14,834 bases of DNA from Gammaproteobacteria bacterium. Lineage in GTDB: Bacteria; Pseudomonadota; Gammaproteobacteria; Pseudomonadales; Azotimanducaceae. The notes beneath the pieces were generated by a model that ran no database searches, was not told where the DNA came from, and saw only the letters and a list, made by a program, of their open reading frames with translations. Position 1 is the stretch's first letter. Each line of letters starts with the position of its first letter. The translations under genes were made by a program, and so were the position numbers. The DNA lies in NCBI GenBank assembly GCA_002704325.1, contig PAFJ01000006.1:48559-63392 (forward strand), given 5' to 3'. Below are positions 568-9,849 of the stretch, piece by piece.

Positions 568-1317
568 ATGCGATTAAAAAATAAAAAAGCCATTATCACA
601 GGAGCTGGCGGTGGAATAGGGCGAGCCATTTGCCTTGACTTTGTCAAAGAGGGAGCTGGTGTAGTTTGTATCGACATAGATTACAAATCACTGAATGAAA
701 CAGCCAAAGAAATTGCTGATATGGGAGGAACAGCCTACACATTAAATGCTGATGTTGCAAAAGAACAAACTTCTATTGACGCCGCAAAGTTAGCCGTTGA
801 TAAATTGGGTGGATTAAATGTACTAGTAAGTAATGCGATCACTGACATCCCCTACGTACCACTAACTGAAATCGATGCTGACGATTGGCGCCGCTTGATG
901 GATGTGAATTTTAATAGCTCTTTTCTTTTTTGTAAGCATGCCATCCCTGAAATGGATAAGGATGGTGGAGGCAGTATAATTTTAGTCGCTTCACAACTCG
1001 GTCGTGTTGCTCGCCCAGGACGGCCTTGGTATTGTGGCGCCAAGGGTGGGCTTATTAATATGGCCCGAGCCATAGCATTAGATCATGCGAAACAAGGGAT
1101 ACGTTGTAATGCTCTATCACCTGGCCCAATTGAAACTGGGCGTTATGTCAGTAATTTTGATAGTGTGGAACATGCTAGAGAGAATAATTTTACGTTGTTT
1201 GAAAGATTAGGCCGTCCAGATGAAATATCGCCAGGAGCGGTTTTTTTAGCCAGCGACGAGTCCTCTTTTATGACTGGGTCCGATTTGCTAATAGATGGGG
1301 GATTTACAGCAGTATGA
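568..1317 (+). CDS. SDR family NAD(P)-dependent oxidoreductase
   Basis: A classical short-chain dehydrogenase/reductase of 249 residues, the normal length. Visible motifs are the Rossmann glycine motif TGAGGGIG (11-18), acidic D36/D38 at the end of beta-2 (favouring NAD over NADP), the N89-A90 position of the NNAG motif (here S-N-A), N114, and the catalytic triad S142, Y155, K159 in the YxxxK arrangement 'YCGAK'. The C-terminal 'GSDLLIDGGFTAV' is the usual end of the family. It should oxidise a secondary alcohol or reduce a ketone in the cytoplasm; the substrate cannot be told from sequence. The ATG at 568 follows an AAAGGG ribosome-binding site. A TATAAT at 522-527 could be a -10 box, but no convincing -35 accompanies it. 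It ends in TGA 107 bp before the metallolyase gene, which seems to have its own promoter. Confidence 0.93.
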   Translation: MRLKNKKAIITGAGGGIGRAICLDFVKEGAGVVCIDIDYKSLNETAKEIADMGGTAYTLNADVAKEQTSIDAAKLAVDKLGGLNVLVSNAITDIPYVPLTEIDADDWRRLMDVNFNSSFLFCKHAIPEMDKDGGGSIILVASQLGRVARPGRPWYCGAKGGLINMARAIALDHAKQGIRCNALSPGPIETGRYVSNFDSVEHARENNFTLFERLGRPDEISPGAVFLASDESSFMTGSDLLIDGGFTAV

Positions 1318-1424: not shown

Positions 1425-2651
1425 ATGACCGATACACCATGGAAACAAGACGGTTGGTTTACCAGCCCATGGAACTTCGATCCAGAAGTGACCAAGGACT
1501 GGAAATTTCCAAATAATATACGTATTCATGACGTGACATTGCGTGATGGAGAGCAACAAGCAGGTTTAGCATATAATTATGACGACAAAATTAGAATAGC
1601 AGAGGGACTTGCTGAAATTGGTGTTCAGAGGTTAGAAGCCGGAATGCCTGTTGTTTCCAAAGATGATGCAAAGGTTGTCACGGAGTTAGCTCGTCGCGAT
1701 TTTGGTCCAAAAGTCTACTCATTTGCTAGATGCATGGTTGACGACGTAAAACGAGCTGTTGATGCCGGTGTGAATGGCGTTATCATGGAGGTCCCAGCCA
1801 GCCCACATTTAATCGAAAAAGGATATCGTTGGGAATTAGATCGAGCCATTGACCTATCAATCGAGTCAACTTCATTTGCTAGAGATCAAGGCTTAGAAGT
1901 AGTATTTTTTCCTATTGACTTTACTCGTTCAGACCTCGTTTGGGTTTGCGATTTAATAGAGCGAGTTGGTAAAGAAGGGCACATGGACGGTTTGGCTCTT
2001 GTAGACACAATGGGAGCAACATCTATTCACGCGATGCAATTTTTCGTTCGCACTATGAAAAATCGCTTCCCCGACATTCCGCTTGAAGCACATTTTCATA
2101 TGGACTTTGGAATGGGTATAGCTAATACAATTATGGCATTATCAGAAGGAGTAGAAGTTATTCAGTCTACAGTATTAGGCGTAGGCGAAAGAGCTGGCAA
2201 TGTTCCAATGGAAGAAACGGTAATGGCGCTAAAATGTCTTTATAATATTGATATTGGAATCAAAACCGAAGGATTTAAGAAATTAGCTGATATGGTTGCA
2301 GAGATATCAAATATACAGATTGCTTCTAATCGCCCAATTGTTGGAGATAATTTATTTAAAGTCGAATCCGGAATAATAGCAACATGGCTATTAAACTGTG
2401 GGTATGAGGATCAGACTGAAGTTGTTCCTTTCCGACCGAGTTTAGTTGGACAAGATGAGCCAGAAGCAGTAATGGGTAAAGGGTCTGGTATTGATAACTG
2501 TAAACATTGGTTAGATAAATTTCAGATTCAAGCTTCAGAGGAACAAGCCATGGAAGTACTTATGGCTGTAAAGGATTGGGGACTTATTCATAAACGACTA
2601 ATGACTGATAATGAATTTTCTAGTCTGGCAAAAGATGTTCTTGAAAATTGA
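1425..2651 (+). CDS. Claisen-type DRE-TIM metallolyase (isopropylmalate/homocitrate synthase-like)
   Basis: A 408-residue protein of the HMGL-like/pyruvate carboxyltransferase superfamily, starting at an ATG behind a strong 'AGGAGG' site. The TIM-barrel DRE motif is 'DVTLRDGEQ' (36-44), giving R40, metal-binding D41 and E43. The metal pair H223-x-H225 is followed by D227, and 'GVGERAGN' (252-259) is the signature of the Claisen-condensing branch rather than of HMG-CoA lyase. The subdomain after the barrel is present ('PIVGDNLFKVESG', about 304-316), but the family's catalytic GIH tripeptide is replaced by G-I-I (316-318). There is no C-terminal leucine-binding regulatory domain. By family it should join or split an acyl-CoA and a 2-oxo acid. 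The changed tripeptide argues against plain isopropylmalate, citramalate or homocitrate synthase. It closes a unit ending at a terminator. Confidence 0.85.
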   Translation: MTDTPWKQDGWFTSPWNFDPEVTKDWKFPNNIRIHDVTLRDGEQQAGLAYNYDDKIRIAEGLAEIGVQRLEAGMPVVSKDDAKVVTELARRDFGPKVYSFARCMVDDVKRAVDAGVNGVIMEVPASPHLIEKGYRWELDRAIDLSIESTSFARDQGLEVVFFPIDFTRSDLVWVCDLIERVGKEGHMDGLALVDTMGATSIHAMQFFVRTMKNRFPDIPLEAHFHMDFGMGIANTIMALSEGVEVIQSTVLGVGERAGNVPMEETVMALKCLYNIDIGIKTEGFKKLADMVAEISNIQIASNRPIVGDNLFKVESGIIATWLLNCGYEDQTEVVPFRPSLVGQDEPEAVMGKGSGIDNCKHWLDKFQIQASEEQAMEVLMAVKDWGLIHKRLMTDNEFSSLAKDVLEN

Positions 2652-2804: not shown

Positions 2805-3260
2805 ATGGTACGTAAAGCTAAGAAAGTTGGCTCGGATGGTGGTAATCTATACGAACGAGCCAATGATATGTTTGTAAAAGTAACAGCTCAAGATACTAAT
2901 GGATCATATGAAGTGTGCGAAGAGCGTTGCCCTGCCGGATTCTCTTCTAGGCCCCACCTGCATACTATTAGCCATGAAACATTCTATGTTATCGAAGGTA
3001 GTGCTACTTTTATTCTCGGAAAAGACGAGCATCAGGGAAAAGTTGGGGATTTGATACATATTCCACCAGGCATACCACATCAGATGATAGCTGGAGACGA
3101 CGGTGTCAGAGTTTTAATGGTATACAGTCCAGGAACAACAGAAGCGATGTTTGCTGACATGACAGCACTTACACCAGAAGAGCGATCAGATTTTAAAACT
3201 GGTGCAGCTGTCGCAGCGAAGCATAATACTGTATGGGTTGAGAATTTCCCCAAGCCATAG
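2805..3260 (+). CDS. Single-domain cupin protein
   Basis: A 151-residue cupin. Motif 1 is present around 'PHLHTISHETFYVIEG', giving metal ligands H51, H53 and E58 plus G65. Motif 2, 'GDLIHIPPGIPH' (81-92), supplies H92 with the G-x5-P-x-G-x2-H spacing intact. All four ligands are there, so it should bind a divalent metal such as Fe, Mn or Ni. Single-domain cupins include dioxygenases, isomerases, decarboxylases and DMSP lyases (DddQ/DddW/DddL types); nothing here singles out one of these. The ATG at 2805 follows AGGAGAG. It is the first gene after a strong promoter and lies 61 bp before the selenocysteine CMD gene. Its place beside a transporter and CMD proteins suggests a ring- or acid-modifying step, by inference only. 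Confidence 0.88.
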   Translation: MVRKAKKVGSDGGNLYERANDMFVKVTAQDTNGSYEVCEERCPAGFSSRPHLHTISHETFYVIEGSATFILGKDEHQGKVGDLIHIPPGIPHQMIAGDDGVRVLMVYSPGTTEAMFADMTALTPEERSDFKTGAAVAAKHNTVWVENFPKP

Positions 3261-3321
3261 TGCTAAATAGTTAGAAAGTTGTAAATTAAATAATACGCAA
3301 CAGGTCATAGGAGAAATAGTT

Positions 3322-3951
3322 GTGCCCAACATAACGATGCTTAATATTGAAGATCTTAAAAAAACTAAACTTGCTGGTTACATTAAGAAAAGTCTGCGTC
3401 ATAAAGCACCAGACCCTGCTTTTCATGCTATGCTTGGCCATAACCCAGAACTCTCAGCGTCTATGTATGTTGCCTGGGGCACTGTGTTCAACACTGGAGT
3501 AATTGATCACAAACTAAAAGAAATTATACGAGTGCAATTATCAAGAACTGCAGATTGCAATTATTGAGGCAATGTAAGATCTGCTTCGGCGAAGCAGCAG
3601 GGGCTCACAGAAGAGTTAATTGATGAGGGTATTGAAAATTATGAAAACTCGGACAAGTTCACAAAGGCTGAGAAAATTGCCCTCAAGTTCTCGGAACTTA
3701 TGGATACTAATCCCGATAAGGTTGATGAAGAGTTTTACCTAAGCCTAAAAGATTATTACAGCACCGAAGAGATAATCGAATTATCGGCCTTTATTGGTTT
3801 TAATATAGGATTTCATACTTGGTTTGGGACATTAGGTTTTTATCCTATGTTTACACCAGATGGCCGATTAGTAGATCAAGAAGAGTCTGCCCGCATTTAT
3901 GGAGAGAAGCCAATCTCACATACAAAGGGGGCGGTAGAACGCTCTAAATAA
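3322..3951 (+). CDS. Carboxymuconolactone decarboxylase/AhpD-like selenoprotein; in-frame UGA read as selenocysteine at codon 82 (CxxU)
   Basis: One 209-residue protein read through a single in-frame TGA (3565-3567). It starts at GTG 3322, behind AGGAGA. Upstream of the TGA are the CMD-family helix 'HKLKEIIRVQLSRTADCNY', with conserved E67 and resolving C79. Downstream the same frame continues 'GNVRSASAKQQGL' and runs to a TAA, with a full second half of the fold. The TGA therefore replaces the second cysteine of CxxC. E67 to C79 is 12 residues, as I recall for Glu118/Cys130 of M. tuberculosis AhpD; the family's relay histidine four residues after the second Cys is R86 here. A SECIS-like hairpin follows (3581-3597). 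Expected activity is thiol/selenol redox chemistry, such as peroxide or organic hydroperoxide reduction, rather than decarboxylation. Alternatives are a nonsense mutation or sequencing error. Genes for Sec insertion (selA, selB, selC, selD) are not in this window. Confidence 0.85.
3568..3607 (+). promoter_or_regulatory. Putative bacterial SECIS element
   Basis: Directly after the in-frame TGA lies a perfect 7-bp stem, CTGCTTC (3581-3587) with GAAGCAG (3591-3597), closing a GGC loop (3588-3590). The loop begins 20 nt after the TGA, within the roughly 16-37 nt range known for bacterial SECIS elements, and it has G in its first two positions as that model requires. A weaker outer helix could pair TGAG (3565-3568) with CTCA (3604-3607), enclosing the recoded codon as in E. 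coli fdhF. The stem is GC-rich in AT-rich surroundings. Folding was done by eye. Confidence 0.72.
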
Positions 3952-3971: not shown

Positions 3972-4517
3972 ATGTCAATTATAAAACCGATACCGTTGGA
4001 AACACTAAATCAAGAGAAGTTTGAATATCGATTAAACCTAGCACGTGACCTGTTAGTTCCAGATGAGCTTTTTTTTCAGATTACCGCACACGCCCCTGGT
4101 TACGCTGAAGCACTATTTGATGCGATGTACCAATCACACGCTCTTGGGGAAGTTGACCATACTTTAAAAGAAATCATTCGAGTTAGATTAACCCAATTCT
4201 CTAAAGACACTTATTTCTCAAAGCTTAGATCGAAGAAAGCAAAAGACCTGGGCCTAACTGAAGAAAAAATAAAAGCTGGCTGCGGAAATTTTTCTAATGA
4301 TAATCAATTTACCCCTGCTGAAAAATGGGCGTTAAATTATGCATCTTTAATGTATAGCGATCCGAAAATGGTGAATGCTAACTTTTATGATCAAGGTAAA
4401 AAACTTTATAGTGAAGCAAATATTATAGAGTTGGGGGCATTTATTGCGTTTCACTATGGAATGCAAATGTTCATGAGAACTCTTAAAATGCTTCCACTGG
4501 ATAATTCCACTCAATAA
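3972..4517 (+). CDS. Carboxymuconolactone decarboxylase/AhpD-like protein lacking the CxxC redox pair
   Basis: A 181-residue paralogue of the preceding selenoprotein, 20 bp downstream and behind a modest AAGG site. The two align without gaps through the core: 'LKEIIRVRL' (65-73), 'LRSKKAKDLGLTEE' (85-98) and 'IIELGAFIAF' (151-160) mirror the same stretches of the neighbour. The redox positions are lost: the resolving Cys is D79 and the Sec position is F82, within K-D-T-Y-F. E67 is kept. CMD proteins assemble into trimers or hexamers, so a redox-dead partner subunit or an enzyme using non-thiol chemistry are both plausible. Neither can be decided here. No frameshift or stop interrupts it, so it looks maintained rather than decayed. 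Confidence 0.85.
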   Translation: MSIIKPIPLETLNQEKFEYRLNLARDLLVPDELFFQITAHAPGYAEALFDAMYQSHALGEVDHTLKEIIRVRLTQFSKDTYFSKLRSKKAKDLGLTEEKIKAGCGNFSNDNQFTPAEKWALNYASLMYSDPKMVNANFYDQGKKLYSEANIIELGAFIAFHYGMQMFMRTLKMLPLDNSTQ

Positions 4518-4605: not shown

Positions 4606-5817
4606 ATGTTGATATCTAAATATATGGAACGTCACGAATATGGCTGGGCAATGGTTGCCATTGCTTTTACGCTGAGCGCTATAAGTTTTGGGATGTTATC
4701 ATCTGTTGGAGTGTTTATTAAGCCACTTCAAGCTGAATTTGGCTGGTCTAGAGGCAGCTTATCTTTTGGCTATTCTGCCATAACCTTATCAACCGCGGTT
4801 GCTGGATTATTTTGGAGTTTTATCGCTGACAAATATGGTACACGTTGGATTGTACTTTTTGGTTCGTTAACTCTCAGTATTCCTCTTCTTCTTTTGAGTA
4901 AAATGGAAACTATTACTGAATTCTATCTTTATTATCTTCTTTTTGGTGCTTTTGGGCATGCCGCGGTATCGAGTCCCCTATACGCGAATATTGGCCTTTG
5001 GTTTAAGAAAAATGTTGGTTTAGCTCTGGGTTTCACGGTGGCAGGTTCAGCTTTTGGACAAGGAACTGTGCCATATATAGCTCAATATCTTATAAATGAG
5101 TACGGTTGGAGTATGGCATATTCAAAACTTGGGACTGCATATATCATTACAGCAATTCCAATTGCTTTATTGGTTAGGGACTCCCCTTCGAGAAAATTAA
5201 TGAATTCGGAACTACCCCCAAATCAGAATAATGGCAAGCCGTTTCCAGTTAAACCGAAAACAGCAATTGCCTGGATCGCATCTGCGGTTTTATTTTGCTG
5301 TATCGCAATGTCACCGCCTATTTTACATCTCGTTCCGTTATTAACTGATTCCGGGATAAGCTCTGAAGAAGCGGTTACAATTTTCTTGTGTCTTATGATT
5401 ACCGGAGCCTTTGGTCGAATAATAGGGGGAAAACTTAGTGATCAAATTGGAGCGTTAAATAGTTATTTTTGCATGTCGGTAATTCAAACAATAGTTATTT
5501 TTACTTTCCCTCATTTAGATAATATTATCATAATTTATCTTGTTGCAATGGTTTTTGGTTTATCGTTCTCAGCAGTGATGGCGTCCTTTATAGTATGCGT
5601 TAGAATGATGGTTCCAGCTAAATTACTTGCAAGAGGAATAGCTGTCGTTGGAATGTTCGGTTGGTTTGGGATGGGTCTAGGAGGCTGGCAAGCTGGTTAT
5701 ATGTTTGACATAACTGGAAACTATAATTGGTCTTTTGGATTAGGGAGTGTTGCAGGCATAATAAACCTGTCAATACTTGCCAGCTTTTATTTTAAAATTA
5801 AAAAGCTTAACGGATAA
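4606..5817 (+). CDS. MFS transporter, monocarboxylate/oxalate-formate (MCT/OFA)-like
   Basis: A 403-residue major facilitator protein of the inner membrane with about 12 hydrophobic segments and a hydrophilic central loop (about 197-218). The loop 2-3 signature is 'FIADKYGTRW' (72-81), repeated in degenerate form as 'GRIIGGKLSDQIG' between helices 8 and 9. The 'EFGWSRGSLSFGYS' stretch before helix 2 is characteristic of the MCT/OFA-like families that carry small carboxylates. The ATG at 4606 is used here; M7 at 4624 is an alternative, since no strong ribosome-binding site decides. It is the last gene of the cupin-CMD-CMD unit, 88 bp after the second CMD gene, and ends just before a bidirectional terminator. 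It is the likely importer, or exporter, for the substrate or product of the cluster. Confidence 0.88.
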   Translation: MLISKYMERHEYGWAMVAIAFTLSAISFGMLSSVGVFIKPLQAEFGWSRGSLSFGYSAITLSTAVAGLFWSFIADKYGTRWIVLFGSLTLSIPLLLLSKMETITEFYLYYLLFGAFGHAAVSSPLYANIGLWFKKNVGLALGFTVAGSAFGQGTVPYIAQYLINEYGWSMAYSKLGTAYIITAIPIALLVRDSPSRKLMNSELPPNQNNGKPFPVKPKTAIAWIASAVLFCCIAMSPPILHLVPLLTDSGISSEEAVTIFLCLMITGAFGRIIGGKLSDQIGALNSYFCMSVIQTIVIFTFPHLDNIIIIYLVAMVFGLSFSAVMASFIVCVRMMVPAKLLARGIAVVGMFGWFGMGLGGWQAGYMFDITGNYNWSFGLGSVAGIINLSILASFYFKIKKLNG

Positions 5818-8441: not shown

Positions 8442-8472
8442 ACGTTATAAATAATATATAAATTTGAGAAGA

Positions 8473-9135
8473 ATGATAAATAAAGTAATAAATTTTGTAG
8501 AAGATACAGTTTCAGATGTTCAAGATGGGGCAGTAATTTTAGCAAGTGGTTTCGGCAATGCAGGCGCCACTAATTGCCTTTTAGAAGCACTTATGGAGAC
8601 AAATGCTAAATACTTAACAGTTGTTGCGAATAATGCCGGCGAGAGTGATTACGGATTAGCTGCGCTGATTGGTTCAGGAAAGGTTTCAAAAGTAATCTGT
8701 TCTTATCCCATAAGCTCTGGTTCAACTATTTTTCAAAAACTATACAATACTAAAGAAATTGATCTCGAACTAGTTCCACAAGGAACATTAAGTGAGAGGC
8801 TACGAGCGGCTGGAGCAGGAATTGGCGGGTTCTATACACGTACCTCAGTAGGAAGCTTGTTAGCCACCGAGAAGGAAAAAAGAAAATTCAACAATATAGA
8901 GTATGTATTAGAATATGGACTGAAGGGCGACTTCGCGTTGATTCGCGGCAAAACTGCTGATCGATGGGGAAACATTATCTACGATAAGTCGGCCCGTAAT
9001 TTTGGACCCATAATGGCAGCCGCGGCGACTACAACTATTGCTCAAGTTGAGCAAATCGTTAAACTAGGCGAGATAGACCCAGAGTTAATTGTGACTCCAG
9101 GAATCTACGTTGATAAGGTTTATTTAAAAAAATAA
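8473..9135 (+). CDS. 3-oxoacid-type CoA transferase, subunit A
   Basis: The alpha subunit of a family I CoA transferase (AtoD/PcaI/ScoA type), 220 residues from the ATG at 8473. That start gives the family's usual 'MINKV' beginning; an in-frame TTG at 8464 would add three residues. Recognisable stretches are 'NNAGESDYGLAALI', 'PQGTLSERLRAAGAGI' and 'FYTRTSVG'. The glycine-rich signature near residues 25-33, normally GGF-x3-G-x-P, reads SGFGNAGAT, so its first Gly and final Pro are changed. With subunit B it should move CoA from succinyl-CoA or acetyl-CoA to an organic acid. The altered loop may reflect an unusual acid. It is followed after 21 bp by subunit B in one operon. The -aki/-aba type (3-oxoadipate, acetoacetate or other) cannot be set. 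Confidence 0.87.
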   Translation: MINKVINFVEDTVSDVQDGAVILASGFGNAGATNCLLEALMETNAKYLTVVANNAGESDYGLAALIGSGKVSKVICSYPISSGSTIFQKLYNTKEIDLELVPQGTLSERLRAAGAGIGGFYTRTSVGSLLATEKEKRKFNNIEYVLEYGLKGDFALIRGKTADRWGNIIYDKSARNFGPIMAAAATTTIAQVEQIVKLGEIDPELIVTPGIYVDKVYLKK

Positions 9136-9156
9136 AATATAAGGAAGTATTGTTTA

Positions 9157-9849
9157 ATGAATTCTCAAAAGAAACAAATGGGTCTCAATCGTCGTCAAGT
9201 TGCATGGCGAATAGCTCAAGAGATTTCAGAGGGTAGCTATGTAAACCTTGGTATTGGGAGCCCAGAATTAGTTGCAAACTATATCCCGGAAGATCGAGAA
9301 ATTATTTTTCATAGTGAAAATGGTATCCTAGGTATGGGACCAGCTCCGAGGCCCGGGGAAGAAAATGGCAATTTGATTAATGCGGGCAAAAAGCCTGTTA
9401 CTCTTTTGGAGGGTGGGAGCTATTTTCACCACACCGACTCGTTTGCTATGATAAGGGGTGGGCATATTGATATCTGTGTTTTAGGCGCTTATCAGGTGGC
9501 TCAGAATGGTGATTTGGCCAATTGGGCAACGCTAGATACCAGCAAGCCCCCTGGAGTTGGAGGGGCAATGGATTTGTCGGTTGGTGCAAAAAAAATATTT
9601 GTGATGATGGATCATTTAACCAAAGATAACGAACCCAAATTAATGAAAACATGTTCATACCCTGAAACAGGTTTTGGAGTAGTCAAAACCGTATTCACAG
9701 ATTTAGCTGTTATAGATATACTTGATAGTAAATTTATCGTGCGAGAGATGGTAGAAACTTTGAGTTTTACTCAGTTACAATCAAAGACAGGCGCACCATT
9801 AACTCTCTCAGATAACTTTAAAACACTTACCCCACCTAATCTTGATTAG
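9157..9849 (+). CDS. 3-oxoacid-type CoA transferase, subunit B
   Basis: The beta subunit (AtoA/PcaJ/ScoB type), 230 residues. It starts at an ATG nine bases after AAGGAAG. The catalytic signature 'FHSENGILG' (51-59) is an exact match to the family pattern and places the CoA-thioester-forming glutamate at E54. 'NLGIGSPELVANYIP' (30-44) and 'GGHIDICVLGAYQV' are typical of the fold. The enzyme forms a glutamyl-CoA intermediate and a heterotetramer with subunit A. It is the last gene before the core block, and converges on rng with 78 bp between. In protocatechuate catabolism PcaIJ acts after the CMD-family decarboxylase PcaC, but no ring-cleavage dioxygenase is visible here, so a beta-ketoadipate pathway is not established. 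Confidence 0.92.
   Translation: MNSQKKQMGLNRRQVAWRIAQEISEGSYVNLGIGSPELVANYIPEDREIIFHSENGILGMGPAPRPGEENGNLINAGKKPVTLLEGGSYFHHTDSFAMIRGGHIDICVLGAYQVAQNGDLANWATLDTSKPPGVGGAMDLSVGAKKIFVMMDHLTKDNEPKLMKTCSYPETGFGVVKTVFTDLAVIDILDSKFIVREMVETLSFTQLQSKTGAPLTLSDNFKTLTPPNLD

Follow-up and report, generated by a model that had tools for sequence, protein, structure and literature searches.

The window analysed here is a stretch of 14,834 nucleotides from a Gammaproteobacteria bacterium (G000:C15:48559-63392, from an assembly of 2.57 Mb in 22 contigs that is 86% complete). It carries a gene for an AhpD/CMD-like protein whose reading frame contains one single in-frame TGA, read here as a selenocysteine (Sec) codon. 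This Sec-CMD gene starts with GTG at 3322, has the TGA as codon 82 and continues for a further 127 codons to a TAA at 3949-3951, and a second CMD gene, referred to as the partner in this text, follows it. An earlier note on this DNA, made from the letters alone, had placed the lone TGA on the second Cys column of a CxxC motif, described the codons behind it as clean CMD sequence and stated that standard gene calling would split the gene. All three statements hold. The frame and the homologue alignment agree on the column, PF02627 matches the read-through protein (C for U) with 31.5 bits against a cut-off of 23 over a best stretch, residues 48-104, that spans the TGA, and the standard list of open reading frames (ORFs) yields two pieces, 3322-3567 and 3700-3951. 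The features are collected in Table 1.

Table 1. Features of the locus, in order along the window.
Feature	Position	Strand	Basis and remarks
Short-chain dehydrogenase (SDR)	568..1317	+	cluster in 11/56 loci
HMGL-like / isopropylmalate-synthase-like aldol enzyme	1425..2651	+	below NCBIfam cut-offs; cluster in 13/56 loci
Cupin-domain protein, upstream	2805..3260	+	Pfam; cluster in 8/56 loci
AGGAG ribosome-binding site, 8 nt 5' of the GTG start	3309..3313	+	read from sequence
Sec-CMD gene, 209-residue AhpD/CMD-like selenoprotein, motif C79-N-Y-U82-G-N-V-R-S	3322..3951	+	frame, PF02627, conservation
In-frame TGA, selenocysteine codon, residue 82	3565..3567	+	reading frame, conserved in homologues
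SECIS-like hairpin CUGCUUC-GGC-GAAGCAG, 7 bp, triloop GGC 3588-3590, 13 nt past the UGA	3581..3597	+	alignment, codon use
Partner CMD gene, 181 aa, redox-dead, D-T-Y-F at the C-x-Y-U columns	3972..4517	+	ORF, profile, 20 nt past the Sec-CMD stop
MFS transporter, end of co-directional run	4606..5817	+	cluster in 8/56 loci

The Pfam gathering score and the fold both place the Sec-CMD protein in the CMD/AhpD-like fold family. Its AlphaFold2 model, built on a 36-row alignment including partners and paralogues, has a predicted local distance difference test (pLDDT) score of 93.2; an earlier model, for which 19 close sequences were used, reached a mediocre 75.1. The extended motif reads C79-N-Y-U82-G-N-V-R-S-A-S-A-K, and E67, 12 residues before the first Cys, is invariant in 19 orthologues. 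The catalytic acid of AhpD is Glu118 and its His is His137. The His usually found three or four residues past the second Cys is absent from the Sec-CMD protein, which has Val85-Arg86 there, and the protein is therefore a member of the fold family and not a canonical AhpD. No NCBIfam model reaches its cut-off on the Sec-CMD protein or on the partner. For the Sec-CMD protein the best relatives, NF053654 (YciW-related (seleno)protein, 67.1 bits against 310) and TIGR01926 (peroxidase-related enzyme, 31.1 against 81.8), lie far under their cut-offs, as does NF041047 (22.5 against 110).

That the in-frame TGA encodes Sec is very strongly supported. The gene was found in 20 of the 24 genomes of the family, each with one TGA within the match and in the same column, and in 23 of the 297 genomes of the order (the 20 included), each with exactly one internal stop, a TGA, by the tool's stop count. 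At an E-value of 1e-25, a sample of 385 genomes of the class gave five matches, the source genome counted, and a sample of 398 genomes of the phylum gave the source genome as sole match; the gene is therefore rare outside its order, and no orthologue without the TGA was found past that threshold in either sample. Five copies in four genomes of another family, 53-59% identical, all have the TGA within CSYU-GNVRS. Scanning named genomes yielded 56 loci; in 55 of them (L070-L124) the TGA stands at codon 82 and is directly followed by GNVRS, with the motif CNYU in 45, CRYU in five and CSYU in five. The 56th (L125:393-1182), in a metagenome-assembled genome titled Pseudolabrys, is a decayed module in which the Sec gene lacks its middle part including the motif and the partner frames are broken. 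These sets overlap in part, since some sampled genomes and named contigs are identical assemblies. The earlier note had judged a random nonsense mutation unlikely, which the recurrence of the codon in named genomes and order carriers bears out.

By record title, the module occurs in Alphaproteobacteria, Nitrospinota, Tectomicrobia, SAR324, Acidimicrobiia and Betaproteobacteria, and the nearest named record with the gene is Rhodospirillales bacterium isolate BS30m-G14 (97% identical; records very near the source genome were possibly excluded). A tree of 53 proteins is largely ordered by taxon, with five changes for five groups (minimum four) and seven rows ungrouped; Nitrospinota are split in it, and one Chloroflexi-titled record adjoins a Nitrospinaceae one. 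In 11 chosen pairs with the window, the uncorrected ratio of nonsynonymous to synonymous differences (pN/pS) is 0.07-0.24 before the TGA and 0.14-0.36 after it, with pS of 0.65-1.09 and codons 83-96 excluded from both parts. These substitution patterns show purifying selection on the frame before and after the TGA alike, and the downstream part is therefore translated in the same frame.

The hairpin right after the UGA resembles a bacterial selenocysteine insertion sequence (SECIS) and has a G in its apical loop. In an alignment of the window with 29 chosen loci, 30 sequences in all, 98.6% of its cells are paired, and pair 18-32 is UA in 18, CG in 11 and UG in one. Codon use was compared in 29 of these sequences at residues at least 90% conserved, Met, Trp and Sec excluded; of 81 such codons, only 88-91, which lie in the hairpin, are served by a single codon. 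The third base of codon 87 varies together with codon 92 (T with CAG in 17, C with CGG in nine, C with GGG in two, T with CGG in one), and the Gln/Arg difference in the protein therefore tracks RNA base pairing. On the evidence of codon choice, the hairpin is frozen at the RNA level.

The source genome has the machinery to read such a codon. A tRNA-Sec with anticodon tca (UCA) scores 73.5 bits against a gathering score of 47; selA (592.9 bits, cut-off 267.9) lies directly 5' of selB (470.9 bits, cut-off 242.25); and selD (407.0 bits, cut-off 125) has its own in-frame TGA at L024:1531-1533, in the motif GGUGAK. Among near-complete genomes of the family, selB is above its cut-off in all eight carriers of the gene and in neither of two non-carriers. 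The earlier note had proposed looking for selA, selB, selC (tRNA-Sec) and selD in the parent genome and for Cys or Sec at the column in homologues. All four genes are there, the homologues have Sec (TGA), with Cys in one short metagenomic contig, and none of the outcomes it had named as refuting a selenoprotein came true.

Directly downstream, the partner is 37% identical to the Sec-CMD protein over their match and by itself scores 19.7 bits against PF02627, under the cut-off of 23. A profile search of the window and 55 further loci found it in the same position in all 53 loci with room for it; L077, L122 and L123, which end too soon downstream, gave no partner and are excluded from the 53. 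Its Cys column holds D in 52 loci and A in one, its Sec column F in 49 and S in four, and Arg stands four residues past the Sec column in every one. Queried against the 297 genomes of the order at E 1e-25, the partner matched 22, that is, 21 with a dedicated partner, all of which also have the Sec gene, and G038, where the Sec gene alone was matched. The two Sec carriers of the order without a partner match are G038, with the Sec gene at a contig edge, and G004, where the Sec gene runs off the contig. In the SAR324 locus L111 the two are naturally fused, the frame reading from the Sec part through the partner and ending in TGA, and 17 database ORFs join the C-terminal part of the Sec protein to the partner (one, P0007, apparently from the window's own contig). 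D and F at the two active-site columns are invariant in these 18 fusion rows. At G777:C5:88883-90787 (minus strand; L126, L134, L130), in a genome of another family, the order is Sec, partner, Sec, so that two Sec copies flank one partner.

Constant pairing and fusion are good evidence for one mixed assembly, and we infer that the Sec protein and the partner probably form a mixed oligomer. CMD proteins are commonly homo-oligomers, and the two proteins could accordingly be separate homo-oligomers linked by co-expression only. This is rather unlikely, as the partner follows the Sec gene wherever there is room, no dedicated partner was matched without the Sec gene among the order genomes at the threshold used, and natural fusions exist.

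Around the pair, SDR, HMGL-like, cupin, Sec-CMD, partner and MFS genes form a co-directional run in the window. Neighbours were clustered for the window and 55 loci, with counts limited by contig ends and one representative scanned per cluster; other ORF clusters include an FAA-hydrolase (16/56), a fumarate-reductase-like flavoprotein (16/56) and a class-III aminotransferase (13/56). Antisense ORFs at the Sec locus (cluster c1, 28 loci) were taken as by-products of the overlapping frame and rejected as evidence. The sole thiol-related neighbour is a gene with a glutathione-S-transferase C-terminal domain at 64-477. Past two opposite-strand genes, a gene pair for a two-subunit 3-oxoacid CoA-transferase lies on the same strand at 8464-9849, and it may serve the same catabolic pathway as the Sec-CMD module.

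The Sec codon, the RNA element, the machinery, the constant pairing, the fusion and the motif loss were computed directly; we infer the heteromer, the roles of residues, the chemistry and the substrate. The most likely reading, in which we place good though incomplete confidence, is a selenoprotein of the AhpD/CMD fold with a SelB-decoded UGA, set in a fixed module with a redox-dead partner and acting as a redox enzyme. UGA codon 82 would be decoded as Sec by SelB and tRNA-Sec(UCA), guided by the hairpin within the coding sequence, and the resulting CxxU selenol/thiol enzyme would join its partner in a heteromer. The Sec subunit would catalyse, and the partner, with Asp and Phe in place of the redox pair, would shape the site or the assembly. 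Going by the residue roles in AhpD, the attack should come from the selenol of Sec82, with Cys79 supplying the resolving thiol and Glu67 being the acid that was kept. A selenol has a low pKa, and loss of the His (Val85-Arg86) would be tolerable to it. The likely job would be to reduce a peroxide, disulfide or other electrophile arising when the neighbouring enzymes catabolise an imported carboxylic acid.

Several observations weigh against this reading. Beyond the pair, the neighbours differ between phyla, as in Rhodospirillales and Nitrospinota, where the setting changes and the pair stays constant; context therefore does not fix the substrate. A Pfam scan of 16 proteins of the window gave no hit to a thioredoxin, lipoyl or flavin disulfide-reductase domain. 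In the hairpin, covariation is confined to one pair, five of the seven pairs are invariant and pair 19-31 is broken in three of the 30 sequences. The window hairpin is only moderately stabler than shuffled sequences (z -1.78, 10 of 200 as good); values elsewhere are -0.67 for L004 (46 as good), -1.80 for L006 (12) and -0.85 for selD (33), and fold energy on its own is weak evidence for the hairpin. When all genomes of the family are counted, 12 of 20 carriers and two of four non-carriers have selB above its cut-off; the assemblies of the eight carriers lacking it are 57-89% complete.

The chemistry could also be of another kind. In deiodinases a selenol attacks a halogen, and the module might be a reductive dehalogenase or detoxifier working in that manner, like the debrominase Bmp8. 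Among solved structures, Bmp8 (6ohi, 6ohj), which has a CMD-type fold, is closest in sequence (8.4e-12), and it is also the top Foldseek match of the first model (pLDDT 75.1); some carriers are marine by title (MarineAlpha3 bins). At about 23% identity, Bmp8 differs in that its pair is CxxC, with Cys and not Sec, and in that it has a His three residues past the second Cys; PA0269, like Bmp8, has the post-motif His that the Sec-CMD protein lost. In a review, Bmp8 is proposed to work via cysteine oxidation to a disulfide, releasing HBr (PMC5577590). We regard such a role for the module as improbable. A non-redox lyase or decarboxylase of CMD type, in which Sec is incidental, is very unlikely. 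The neighbours are lyase-like, SDR and cupin proteins, and the CMD family does contain a true decarboxylase.

How the codon appears in protein databases bears on whether UGA might be read as Trp, or act as a regulatory stop giving truncated and full-length products, with no Sec involved. A profile search of 5.8 billion proteins gave 637 relatives, and the figures that follow are from the best 120 of the 637. Seven (P0002-P0006, P0012, P0013) have Trp at the Sec column, one (P0029, CVFCGNVRS, partial, from a 518-base contig) has Cys, 39 start just past the Sec codon (xRS-SAK), and most of the remainder start further downstream, are frameshifted or are partner-like. The Trp forms, and the fact that hairpins can promote readthrough, would suit a Trp or regulatory reading. 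The Trp forms presumably reflect gene calling under another code; in the case of P0002, it is the window's own DNA that was called in this way. TGA is the ordinary stop of five of the 16 window genes checked (SDR, HMGL-like, Maf, LMWP and UPF0262), and the code is therefore not reassigned, which rules out that explanation. The codon also lies on the catalytic Cys column, where one Cys form exists, selB accompanies the gene in near-complete genomes, and a product stopped at 81 residues would, on the model, lack the second half of the fold. Readthrough of this kind is extremely unlikely. That the gene is a pseudogene, with a nonsense mutation or a sequencing error as its TGA, has next to no probability and is already refuted by conservation of the TGA across many assemblies and several phyla and by selection on the frame past it, even if standard ORF calling splits the gene and one related locus (L125) is truly decayed.

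A search scored on residues 1-115 returned 14 proteins, with no full-length Cys orthologue among them; such a search reaches only relatives sharing exact words. Wider CMD relatives carry Cys at the Sec column. Within what was searched, the Sec-CMD family thus appears, by its sequences, to be nearly always Sec.

Four more CMD genes of the source genome show an in-frame TGA where CxxC has its second Cys (CNYU, CNYU, CDYU and CAYU), at G000:C17:133063 (L004), G000:C4:199019 (L006), G000:C14:106676 (L007, minus) and G000:C17:127905 (minus). All four retain a His three residues on, and each is followed by an inverted repeat with a GGTC loop; of these, L004 and L006 were folded. Counting selD and the gene of the window as well, the genome has six candidate selenoprotein genes. 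A near-identical CFHC-type CMD gene lies close to two contig ends, at G000:C19:11052 (L003) and C17:1199 (L005); the C17 copy is richer in ambiguous bases, and the two are possibly one gene doubled by the assembly.

AhpD-like and CMD-like CxxU selenoproteins have been published since 2005, according to the parts of these sources that concern them (PMC1088965; PMC2398784; reviews PMC9312934, PMC13188914). The statement in the earlier note that AhpD-like selenoproteins are reported from marine metagenomes is correct in this respect, as the Sargasso Sea and Global Ocean surveys describe AhpD-like 1 (COG2128) and AhpD-like 2 (pfam02627) in their relevant sections (PMC1088965; PMC2398784). As described there, these families share with Sec-CMD the CMD/AhpD type, the CxxU motif, the occurrence in marine bacteria and a predicted bacterial SECIS past the UGA. 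They differ in that their Cys homologues are numerous (902 and 207 in the table of the Global Ocean survey), against the one partial Cys form found for the Sec-CMD family, to which some survey reads could belong. Unlike them, as far as those sections describe them, the Sec-CMD family does without the His and comes with a constant partner that is redox-dead. The CMD-like (CMD domain-containing) selenoprotein of the same literature (four Sargasso sequences; MBW1767730.1 in PMC13188914) likewise combines PF02627 with CxxU. The Sargasso one is listed with 14 Cys homologues in the dataset and five in genomes. MBW1767730.1, compared by description only, may be of the same family, and the passages on it mention no partner. 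NF041238, a catalogued AhpD-related (seleno)protein model of 357 positions, has room for two domains by length only; it is not among the eight matches of the Sec-CMD protein at E up to 0.05, and two paralogues from the source genome match it with scores under its cut-off.

The operon section of PMC13188914 treats Prx-like/AhpD-like clustering, with no active/inactive CMD pair in that section, and in a full-text search of the literature on AhpD-like/CMD selenoproteins, figures and supplements being outside its scope, no title describes the pair. The class is thus known. What appears new, as far as searched, is the subfamily, with its almost exclusive use of Sec, its lack of the His and its constant partner. 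The partner is the more novel part and goes beyond the earlier note, as do the hairpin, the nearly Sec-only state and the loss of the His. In its fullest form, the proposal is of an essentially Sec-only, obligately two-subunit CMD selenoenzyme, beside varied catabolic genes, in which the redox-dead Asp/Phe sister is a fixed part and Sec has made the conserved His dispensable; for this we consider the balance to be about even.

A Sec gene next to a sister with a lost active site points to a selenium enzyme of two parts that has been overlooked. Annotation easily misses selenoproteins, and the database entries for this family show how, with false Trp residues or starts placed past the Sec codon. 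The RNA element is instructive as well, as it fixes codon choice and accompanies a protein difference between Gln and Arg. Should the pair be a heteromer, it would be a natural test of the benefit of Sec, in which the active subunit kept Sec and does without the His and its sister lost the chemistry.
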